Positions 49,101 through 62,576 of a DNA stretch of 64,000 nt are shown in pieces; the first letter of the stretch is position 1, and each line of letters begins with the position of its first letter. The stretch lies in contig NC_133661.1 of NCBI RefSeq assembly GCF_037893015.1, positions 180,894,508 through 180,958,507 on the forward strand. The letters are read 5' to 3'. Position numbers and translations under genes: made by a program. This DNA comes from Macrotis lagotis. Lineage: Eukaryota; Chordata; Mammalia; Peramelemorphia; Peramelidae. Below the pieces are notes generated by a model. That model saw only the letters and a program-made list of their open reading frames with translations, was not told where the DNA came from and searched no databases.

Positions 49101-52100
49101 TGAAGGAACTGAACCCTTGAGATTTGGTGGTAGACCTATTTTTAGCTCTGTCTCAAGTTTGTAAAGCACCATTTCTCCAAAGAAAAGAGGTACCCAACCC
49201 AAGAGAAAGTGATGGTCCTCCCCTAACTTCCATGGTCACAGGGAAAAAATATACTTTCTAGCATTTTTGCTGAATTTCGAGAGACAGGACAGAGGCAAGT
49301 CACAGACACAAAGACACATAGGCAGACATACATACATACACACAGTGGAGGGAGAACTGGGAACTAGAACAATTAATATAAGCTCCATGTTTTTGTCTTC
49401 CTTTGTATCCTCCCACACTTAAGCCTTTCCCTGGTGCATAGCACTTAACAAATTGCTTGTTGATTGTCTTAACTGACTTGGCAAGAAGGGGCACTGATAC
49501 CAACTTTACCCAAATTAGACTAAAAATAGATTCTTCTAACTTCCCCTCCTGCATGGGCCCTTTTGTCCCTCCCTTCATTCCCTGTTACAAGATTAGGGCT
49601 GGGTTGGGGGAGTACCTGTCATCATAGGAGGTAATCCTCTTCCCTTCCACAATTCGAGAGGGAGTGACAGAGAGCAGGCTGAGGGACTGTAGTTTAGTCA
49701 GGAAATGACGTTCTGTGGGGGAGGGATCAGGATGAGGGTGGGAAGGGATTGAATGGTCTGTTAGTCCCTGGGTAGGGAAGGTAGTGGGTAAATAGTCTTG
49801 GGGTGAAACTCTGCTCACCTTTCACCTTGGCATCCTTCCTAAGGCGCCACTGAGGCACAAAGACTGTGATCTCTCGGTGTCCCCGATCCCAGAAATACTG
49901 CACAGCTAAGGCTATGCCCCGGCAGGAGAAGAAATGCTGGAGGCCATGGCTGAGAAAGCAAGCAAGTTGTTCAAATTAAGGACAAGATTTTCCATCCCTA
50001 CTCCTATGACTAAAGCATCCTCCAGAAGGCTCAAAGAGGGCAGACCAACCTGTCTGCTGTCCCACCACTGTTCTGGATAAAATGACAACCAATGTGATAG
50101 AAAAAGAGATCACTGGTCAGAGAGCCAGAAACATAGAATCCAGTCTAACCCACTTTATAGATGAGGAAATTGAAGTAGTGGATATTGGTCTTGCTCAAAG
50201 TCTCCATAGGAAGAAAATGGCAGAGTAGGCATTTGGAAGCAGGTTCTCTTAAAGCCAAAAATTAGAATGCTCTACTGATCCATGTTCAAGATCTGATGCC
50301 ACCCTCTATGTCTTAAATGAGGTATTATCTTTAGAGATGATCTGATAAAATTCTTGTTTATTCTGGTAAACTAAGACATAGAGAGGATGATTTTCCCAAG
50401 ATCACACAGGAAATTAGTCACTCTGCTGAGACTAGAACAAAGACCTGGATTCAGATCCTAGTTCCTTCCCCAACCAGCAACCACATGACTGGAGACAAGT
50501 AGCATCACATCTGAGCCTATTTCCATTTCTTCAGCTATAAAATAATGACAATTATCAGAGGGGTGCTGACAAAATTTAACTGGCGCTCTAGGGGAAAAGG
50601 TATATATATCTATGACACATTTGCATTATTAGCATTTTCTGAAGTCTAGGCAATAAACAGAAGTATTAGTGGTATTTGCCAATTTTTGAGGGGTAAATAC
50701 TCACACTGAAAATCTTAAAATCTGCTTTAACCTTTTGAGCTATTAGTACAGCACTGAATAATCCATTCATTACCTTATTCATTATATAGTTTTGTTGGAA
50801 CACAAGACAGCAAAGAACCTGGAATCAGGGAAATCTAAGGTTGGAATCCTATCTCAGATAATTCCTAACTAGATGAGTCTGGATAAGTCACCTATCTGTT
50901 TGCCTCAGTTTCCTCCATTCAAAAGTGGGGGTAATAAATAGTATCTCATGGTGTTACTGTAAGGATCAGTAAGATAGTAGGAACAAAGCTCTATGCAAAC
51001 CTTAAAGTACTTTATATATATTAGCTATTATGATTACTATTATTATTTTCTTTAAGCCCCTATGCCTCAGGTAGTTTCCTAAGCAGTGTTTTTAAGTTAG
51101 AGGTTAGTGGAATACTCACATCATGGCTATATTGCTGCCATCGATGATAACATGTCGGAGACCTGTTGTACCAGGCACATTAGTGAGGTTCAAGGAAAAC
51201 GGGGTCTTCAAGGCCTCCAGAAAGCGCTGGGTTTTGGTCACCTCATAGTTGCCACCAGTGGTGCCACCTAAGCTTCCCTTTTGAGGCTCCTGCCTCTTTA
51301 GTCCCACAGACTGCCCATCCCCAGGCTTTGGAGAAACAACCCATGTGGGTTGAGACCCAGGTAGAAGGTTGAGTCCCATTGGTGAGGAGGATTCTCCATT
51401 CCTGAGCTGAAGGAGGGGTGTTAGAGGGCATTTCAACTGCTGATCACCCACCACTGCCTGAGGAGAATGGCCATAGGAATCAGCTGCAGCCTGGTTCACC
51501 CCCAGAGTGAAATCAGCCTTGAATGTGTGTGGGTTTGGGAACTGATCTTGGCTCTGGGACCCTTCTCTTTGAGGCATCTCACCAGGTAGTTCAACTCTTT
51601 TCAAGTCCTTTTCTTCCAGACACCATATTTTGTCCTGGTCCTCCTCCCTACTGTGTCTCTTTTCCCCACAATCCCTCTGCCCAAAGTGCCCCTCTCTATC
51701 CCAGTCCTTCCCCCTAGTCAAGCCCTCCCCATTCCAATCTCTCTCCCCAAGAAACCCATCCTTCCCCCAGTTCCTTTCCCTAGATGGACAATTTCTCTCC
51801 TCAGGAATCCCTTCCCTCCCCGAATTCCTCTGCCTAGGAAATCCCTCCCTAGGACTCCCTGTTCTCTCCAAGTTTCTTTGCCCAGAGAGATTCTGTGTTT
51901 GCCAATCCTTTTCCCTGATCAGTTCTACTATCATCCTGGAATTCTTCTCTTCCATGGACCACAGTTTTTCCCAGTCTCTCTCTCCAGGATCAGAAGTCAG
52001 ACACTGTTTCCTAATCTCTTCCTTCTCCACAGACCTAGTGCCCAATGAGGCAATGCCACCTTCCCTGACTTCTCTGCCCTCAATGTAAGTCTTTGTGATA

Positions 52101-61077: not shown

Positions 61078-62576
61078 GTAACATTTCTCCCCCATCCCAC
61101 CAACCTCACCTGCTGATTCCTGAATGGAGAGGAAAACTGGTTTCTATTCTGAGTCCCACTCAATCTCTCATCTCCCAGGGTTCATCTCTTTTTAAGAAAA
61201 ACCAGCTCCATAGTCCCTCCACTTTTGCCATTTCCTACACCTTTCTCCACTTCCCCCAAATATCCTTATTCAAAACTCTCCTTGCCCTTTTATCACATTC
61301 ATCTACTCCTTCCCCTTACTCTCCACCCTTTCCCTCACTACCAAACCTTCGTTCTTACCCTTCCCATATTATTCTTTCCCTCCCCCATCTCCCTCTCCCT
61401 AGGTTCTGGTAAATGAAGGCAATGGCTTTGACAGGACCTCAGGTTCCTTTATTGCCCCTGTCCGGGGTGTCTACAGTTTCCGGTTCCATGTGGTGAAGGT
61501 ATACAACCGCCAGACAGTTCAGGTGAGCCCAGAAAAAAAATAGGTGAAAGCAGACAAGTTACACTCAACCCTATTCCTGACTTAGGCTGTGTTTCTGACT
61601 TCTAGTTCTGACTTTTTTTAGTCACCTATCCCACAAAAAGTCAGTGACCAAGGGATTCCAGAGGACTCAGGATCACCTCTACTAGCCAAACTCTGACTAT
61701 TGCATGGTTGGAGATCCTGGCAAAGTCAAAGAGACCACTTGTAAAGGTTGAATGGTGGTGACAGGTCAAGTCAGGGGAAATGGGCCCTTCTGACCCAAGG
61801 CAATTCAGAACCCTAAGTTAGCCTAGTTAATCCTTGCTCTCTCAGAAGGGCTAGGATTTAGAAGAAAAGGAGGAAACAAGTATTTAAGTGACTATTTATA
61901 TGTCAGACATGAACTAAGCTTACAAGAATCCTAAAAAAATAGGTGCTATTATTTATTATCTCCTTTTACAGTTGAGGAAACTGTTAGATAGAAGTGCCTA
62001 AGGGGCGGCTAGGTGGCGCAGTGGATAGAGCACTGGCCCTGGAGTCAGGAGTACCAGAGTTGAAATCCAGCTTCAAACACTTAATAATTACCTAGTTGTG
62101 TGGCCTTGGGCAAGCCACTCAACCCCATTGCCTAGCAAAAAAAAAAAAAAAAGTGCCTTGCCCAGGGTCACATAAGGAAGTGTCTGAGACAGGCTGGATT
62201 TGAACTCAGTCTAAGCCAAGTGTTCTATCCACTGGATCACCTATCCACTGCCTCAGGAATGATGATTGATGATGACTGAAAGAGAAGCTATATCATAATC
62301 CAAAGATTTCTTCAGCTGTAGAGGGAGGTGGGAGCTACAAGATAGAGGTCCTAATACCCCCAATTCTCCCATCCCCAGGTAAGCCTGATGCTGAATACAT
62401 GGCCTGTGATCTCAGCTTTTGCCAATGATCCTGATGTGACAAGAGAGGCAGCCACTAGTTCTGTTCTCTTACCCCTGGACCCTGGGGATCGTGTGTCCCT
62501 GCGTCTGCGCCGAGGGAACCTGCTTGGTGGCTGGAAGTTCTCTAGCTTCTCTGGCTTTCTGATCTTTCCTCTCTGA
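60826..62576 (+). CDS. CBLN3: CBLN3, cerebellin-3 precursor
   Basis: Three coding exons join in frame to 189 aa: 60826-61077, 61403-61522 and 62379-62576. The protein starts with a signal peptide ([17 protein letters not shown], cleavage likely near residue 17). Next is the cerebellin cysteine pair C29 and C33 in [11 protein letters not shown], which in this family links trimers into hexamers. From about residue 50 a C1q globular domain follows ([49 protein letters not shown]) to the end at SGFLIFPL. One N-glycosylation sequon lies at N74-G-T. Human CBLN3 is about 205 aa and nearly identical in the C1q domain; its N-terminus is longer. Known role: secreted from cerebellar granule cells in complexes with CBLN1. 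Divergent from KHNYN. AATAAA at 62971 probably ends the mRNA. Confidence 0.96.
61403..61522 (+). CDS. CBLN3: CBLN3 coding exon 2
   Basis: Residues 85-124, [20 protein letters not shown] and [20 protein letters not shown]. Acceptor CTCCCTAG, donor GTGAGC. Symmetric phase 0. Confidence 0.96.
61960..62260 (+). repeat. MIR-type relic split by the SINE
   Basis: CTTTTACAGTTGAGGAAACT on the left and TTGCCCAGGGTCACATAAGG..GGCTGGATTTGAACTCAG on the right are successive parts of one MIR-type repeat, separated by the SINE. Confidence 0.75.
62002..62152 (+). mobile_element. tRNA-derived SINE, second copy with both target sites
   Basis: Same element as 56301-56445 but with a 16-A tail and the right-hand target site AAGTGCCT (62151-62158) matching the left one (61992-61999). 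It lies inside an older MIR-type repeat whose halves flank it. Confidence 0.93.
62379..62576 (+). CDS. CBLN3: CBLN3 coding exon 3
   Basis: Residues 125-189 after [28 protein letters not shown] to the stop. Single copy, right of the duplication. Confidence 0.96.

Follow-up and report, generated by a model that had tools for sequence, protein, structure and literature searches.

A gapless 5.7-kb direct repeat across the 5' halves of KHNYN and CBLN3 in the greater bilby reference, slightly more likely a false haplotype duplication than a new tandem one

The stretch analyzed here (the window; 64,000 nucleotides, with positions counted from its first letter) is taken from the greater bilby, Macrotis lagotis, and corresponds to positions 180,894,508-180,958,507 of scaffold 4 in a genome of 3,655,600,598 bases in 607 pieces, the genome used for the searches described below. 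It carries two divergently oriented genes, KHNYN on the reverse strand and CBLN3 on the forward strand, and the 5' coding exons of both, together with the upstream region that they share, occur twice. Comparison of the window with itself gave one long direct repeat, 50729-56445 against 56444-62146, with 99.48% identity over 5,720 alignment columns, and chance could not plausibly produce 99.5% identity over 5.7 kb. The original prediction, made from the sequence of the window, had described two near-identical, adjacent, direct units, and that description was borne out. It had left two explanations standing, a new duplication and an assembly in which two haplotypes were laid end to end, and the balance between these is the main subject of what follows.

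Because the AA at 50729-50730 is shared with the end of the first unit, and thus constitutes microhomology, the units were delimited strictly as 50731-56445 (unit 1; 5,715 bp) and 56446-62152 (unit 2; 5,707 bp). Unit 1 ends in a run of ten A residues and unit 2 in a run of sixteen, each being the tail of the same dispersed repeat, of which dozens of copies at 91-94% identity are found elsewhere in the genome; from its look and its tail we take this repeat to be SINE-like (resembling a short interspersed element). At the inner junction (56436-56455) the order is repeat end, A run, and then CCTTTTGAGCTATTAG, with A10 joined directly to CCTTTTGAGC. The head-to-tail join is therefore contiguous, without filler and without N, as is the rest of the window without N, and its microhomology with the left flank is the 2 bp already mentioned; in this window, 2 bp or more would be reached by 17% of random joins. 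At the right edge, the word GTGCCT, which reads AAGTGCCT when the neighboring A residues are included, was seen by eye on both sides of the SINE-like repeat, a match of 6-8 bp. A scripted search for a flanking word returned nothing, its right-hand start having been placed past part of the word. The word is placed as a target-site duplication would be; if it is one, the right edge represents the ancestral state, and the inner join alone is new or artificial. No matching or homologous repeat was detected at the left edge by self-comparison within the window. Unequal crossing over between two SINE-like elements was accordingly rejected as the origin of the repeat: the right edge does lie in a SINE-like tail, but the left edge has no counterpart within the window. 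Insertion of a new SINE with a very long target duplication was likewise rejected, as the SINE-like element is present in both units and, at the right edge, has a short word on either side.

Base-by-base alignment of the two units yielded 18 events. Five are clean substitutions (at 54069, 54435, 54880, 54982, and 55651), and a CT array at 53781-53841 contains five more substitutions together with one 2-bp indel. Repeat-unit indels, CTT and CTTCCTGC, lie at 54089 and 54102, and a GGG change lies inside a G run at 53957. The remaining four are one-base differences, three in short runs (51089, 51499, and 55833, with run lengths of 5/6, 5/6, and 7/8, respectively) and one at the edge of a CA array (52609). 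The five single-base differences, the 3-bp and 8-bp indels, and the changes of run length that had been listed earlier match this alignment. Divergence between the units is thus 0.09% when the five clean substitutions in 5.7 kb are counted and 0.17% when the ten that include the CT array are, and the one-base indels amount to four in 5,700 aligned bases, or 0.70 per kb. Copy differences of this size are expected of alleles or of consensus errors, and real young duplicates could show the same. The clean substitutions are clustered within a span of 1,582 bp (P 0.02), an observation made post hoc and not used further.

Exons were assigned with human KHNYN and CBLN3 protein sequences, both of which match the window exon by exon, and the gene names and the divergent layout given in the original prediction are supported by these matches and by the domains that the products contain. 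Coding exons 2 and 3 of KHNYN and coding exons 1 and 2 of CBLN3 are doubled, whereas the remaining coding exons of both genes are present once in the window. On the reverse strand, KHNYN runs through unit 1 from coding exon 2, which holds the start codon (53037-53237), into exon 3 (51120-52552), which is open and in frame with exon 4 (49819-49949), and then through exons 5 (49616-49712), 6 (44066-44173), and 7 (43694-43795) to the last exon (42807-43188), which encodes the C-terminal CUE-like/CUBAN domain. Exons 2-7 were joined by script and the last, with its borders, was set by hand. These seven coding exons, all with AG/GT borders, give a protein of 817 residues with an ex-diKH part at 8-193, a PIN nuclease at 506-689, and the C-terminal part at 766-817, by match to KHNYN structures and in agreement with Pfam. 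The protein is longer than its human counterpart, the last domain of which ends at residue 678 (PMC12709174), and has a longer linker. Exon 3 also contains a 54-bp tandem repeat of 1.9 copies, at 51735-51837 and again at 57452-57554.

In unit 2, KHNYN coding exon 2 (58753-58953, reverse strand) is identical to that of unit 1, but exon 3 (56836-58269, reverse strand) has an extra base, G5 having become G6 on the coding strand. This difference, at 51499/57215, is the only one in coding sequence between the units. The frame consequently stops after codon 424, before the nuclease, and both the nuclease part (531-689 of the 817-residue unit 1 protein) and the C-terminal part (766-817) are absent; the ex-diKH, PIN nuclease, and C-terminal CUE-like domains of a complete KHNYN paralogue do not stand together in one open frame in unit 2. 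Antiviral activity of KHNYN is described as needing the nuclease and the C-terminal domains (PMC12582503, PMC9888277, PMC12709174).

The forward-strand exons of CBLN3 show the mirror arrangement. Coding exon 1 (55126-55377) and exon 2 (55703-55822; 120 nt, phase 0 at both ends) of unit 1 are identical to those of unit 2 (60826-61077 and 61403-61522), and exon 3 (62379-62576) occurs once in the window, to the right of unit 2. Read through unit 2, the three exons encode a protein of 189 residues, in which Pfam places a C1q domain. With every CBLN3 intron in phase 0 and an exon 2 of 120 nt, transcription from the spare start of this gene could yield normal CBLN3 by skipping or, judging from the exon phases, a form with exon 2 twice. 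Each gene is therefore whole by way of a different unit, as had been proposed. The accompanying claim that each gains a spare 5' end was half right: the spare CBLN3 end is intact, but the spare KHNYN end is frameshifted, which had been missed.

The neighborhood holds what looks like an older copy of KHNYN. NYNRIN-like exon pieces, 79-82% identical to parts of KHNYN exons 2 to 5, lie in the same orientation beyond the right end of the window, at a distance of 18-43 kb (C4:180976320-181001283), and NYNRIN is described as a duplicate of KHNYN (PMC12582503, PMC9888277); the earlier statement that NYNRIN next door arose in this way agrees with both. The repeat in the window resembles NYNRIN in being a copy of KHNYN exons in the same neighborhood. 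They differ in that NYNRIN, an old gene of therians, is fused to part of a retroelement pol (PMC12582503, PMC9888277), whereas the KHNYN copy in the window consists of two coding exons, out of frame and diverged by ~0.1-0.2%. Copies elsewhere and a leftover haplotig were considered and rejected: among the ~40 best candidates of each DNA search of the genome, no near-identical third copy of 51000-55900 was found, nor was there a near-identical second copy of the flanking stretches 49500-50728 and 62260-63600, KHNYN exons 6-8 lying outside this genome-wide search. An Rfam search gave nothing at the gathering threshold. In the literature on KHNYN, NYNRIN, and marsupials, and on KHNYN/CBLN3 duplication, represented mostly by titles and the opening lines of abstracts, no title among those listed reports a KHNYN/CBLN3 duplication, and the main text of the bilby genome paper (PMC11239497) does not mention KHNYN, NYNRIN, or CBLN3.

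The genome searched fits the published greater bilby assembly, which is given as 3.66 Gb in 609 scaffolds, with nine chromosomes, an N50 of 343.85 Mb, and a chromosome 1 of 934,426,298 bp (PMC11239497). It was produced from ~10x HiFi reads (public under PRJNA1049866) with IPA, purge_dups, ARCS/LINKS, PBJelly at default settings, Pilon, and HiRise, and 4.9% of its BUSCOs are duplicated, which its authors relate to a possible weakening of false-duplication removal by the low HiFi depth (PMC11239497). Rhie et al. describe duplicated sequence, often as long as a read, at the boundaries of contigs, which scaffolding turns into tandem copies separated by a gap; PBJelly was restricted in that work to avoid greedy closures without spanning reads (PMC8081667). 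Ko et al. state that most false duplications have gaps between the copies, that they are "sometimes" connected via incorrect gap filling, and that one true allele-specific tandem duplication was seen at haploid depth (PMC9516828). The KHNYN/CBLN3 repeat is like the heterotype and homotype false duplications of these papers (PMC8081667, PMC9516828) in consisting of near-identical direct neighbors with small differences, in partly doubling the exons of a gene, and in belonging to an assembly with a raised rate of duplicated BUSCOs; it is unlike them in that no N gap separates its copies.

Control pairs were sought in the same genome by scanning for five Pfam families, the best 150 of 483 homeodomain, 150 of 153 HLH, 150 of 202 BTB, and 150 of 556 Ion_trans candidates being scored. 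The scans gave 588 matches (66 Forkhead, 150 homeodomain, 80 HLH, 140 BTB, and 152 Ion_trans), among which at least 13 pairs or blocks of equal score were recognized by eye on the same strand and scaffold, 6.8-319 kb apart; one BTB pair on opposite strands was left out of the 13, and some of the 13 may be real paralogues. N gaps separate the copies in all four of the pairs that were read. A HOX-like block with two homeodomain matches (C1:686040001-686080000) occurs twice, ~25.6 kb apart and near-identical, with a 9,854-base N gap; it is hard to believe as biology and is very probably a false duplication. Its copies differ by two substitutions in 12.3 kb and, the first 461 bases of the alignment being excluded from the count, by eight one-base indels in 11,852 aligned bases (0.67 per kb). 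A 66-base run of N, which may not be a gap, lies at the same relative place in both copies. A Forkhead gene (C5:123411001-123446000) is present twice, 28 kb apart, across a 5,855-base N gap, with 11 substitutions in 7.06 kb (0.16%) and dozens of one-base indels, and one of its copies looks like sequence of raw-read quality. The near-identical copies at 838 Mb on C1 are separated by 2,500 N and belong to a local family of copies at ~91%, and this pair may be partly real. For the C7 pair, the comparison covered the stretch between the matches, where gaps of 100 and 300 N were seen. More same-strand neighbors of equal score, including C9:404426941/404521798, C9:586495381/586558334, C1:694154272/694252845, C1:626661031/626713360, C2:30715446/30805649, and others, were noted among the ion-channel, BTB, and HLH matches, and these are perhaps leftover duplications as well.

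On balance, the KHNYN/CBLN3 repeat was judged somewhat more probably than otherwise to be a false haplotype duplication, left behind when the genome was assembled from long reads at low depth. The ends of two contigs, derived from the two parental copies of one 5.7-kb stretch, would have stayed unmerged; scaffolding would have set them in succession, and gap closing or polishing would have left them abutting without N. In the animal itself, the locus would accordingly comprise the left flank, one unit, and the right flank, and KHNYN and CBLN3 would each be present once. We infer the allelic nature of the two copies, the step by which they came to abut, and a consensus error as the source of the additional base in the unit 2 KHNYN exon. 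The assembly is rich in duplicated neighbors and was made with a permissive gap filler, and the divergence between the units is small, being of the order of that in two gap-separated pairs, the HOX-like and the Forkhead. The density of one-base indels is practically that of the HOX-like pair. Natural variation has roughly one small indel per eight substitutions; with assumed expectations of 0.6-1.7, four one-base indels have a probability of about 0.003-0.09, and this excess suggests that the consensus of one unit or both was built at low depth, as happens where contigs end. Several observations weigh the other way. There is no N at the join, while all four of the neighbor pairs read have N gaps; no N-free near-identical pair was found elsewhere, and an N-free artefact thus has no proven second example here. 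The join is clean and has microhomology, albeit of a length that 17% of random joins reach or exceed. The 5.7-kb offset is smaller than all 13 pair spacings, although a scan of this kind favors long duplications. One-base indels are far more frequent in the Forkhead pair than between the units, and so the fingerprint of error is not uniform. Finally, the sole frame-breaking change sits in the KHNYN copy that is detached from the rest of its gene.

Most of these observations also favor a real tandem duplication of very recent origin, whether fixed in the bilby or polymorphic, which we regard as a strong contender with a probability below even. It would have arisen by end joining or template switching from the tail of the SINE-like repeat to unique sequence 5.7 kb away. 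KHNYN would remain whole through unit 1 and CBLN3 through unit 2, and the upstream region that they share would be present twice. The gapless join, the 2-bp microhomology without filler, and a right edge that appears ancestral, so that only the inner join need be new, all agree with such an event, and HiFi reads should resolve so short a unit. The repeat resembles young germline tandem duplications with microhomology junctions in its direct head-to-tail unit, its clean join with 2 bp of microhomology, and its breakpoint in a SINE-like tail. Skipping of the extra exons could still allow transcripts begun at the spare starts to encode normal proteins, and the spare CBLN3 of unit 1 and the spare KHNYN of unit 2, being convergent, could overlap in antisense. 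The frameshift falls in the copy that would be free to decay, and the spare KHNYN 5' piece would then have begun to do so. Such decay was rejected as proof of a real duplication, however, because the HOX-like and Forkhead pairs too differ most often by one-base changes. The abundance of duplicated neighbors in the assembly, a one-base indel density equal to that of a gap-separated pair, and a divergence no larger than alleles could show also count against it. That a functional second gene is emerging here from KHNYN, as NYNRIN did earlier, is highly improbable: NYNRIN provides the precedent close by, but the extra copy has only coding exons 2 and 3, lacks the nuclease and C-terminal exons, and is frameshifted before the nuclease. 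A false duplication thus remains slightly more likely than a true new one because of the record of the source assembly and the error-like one-base indels, with the missing N gap set against it, and the alternative offered in the original prediction comes out slightly ahead; the ranking of the three readings is a matter of judgement and was not computed.

Either way, the reference without reads should not be used to support a claim of a second KHNYN or CBLN3. If the repeat is an artefact, then the copy number, dosage, and single-nucleotide polymorphism calls of KHNYN and CBLN3 are unreliable at this locus in the reference, and an N-free example is added to the leftover duplications suspected by the authors of the assembly. 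If it is real, it is a very young copy-number change at the upstream region shared by the genes of an antiviral RNase and a cerebellin, in a species for which 12 resequenced individuals exist (PMC11239497). A bilby-specific and possibly polymorphic duplication that gives KHNYN a second promoter, creates a convergent antisense pair, and alters the expression of both genes is improbable.

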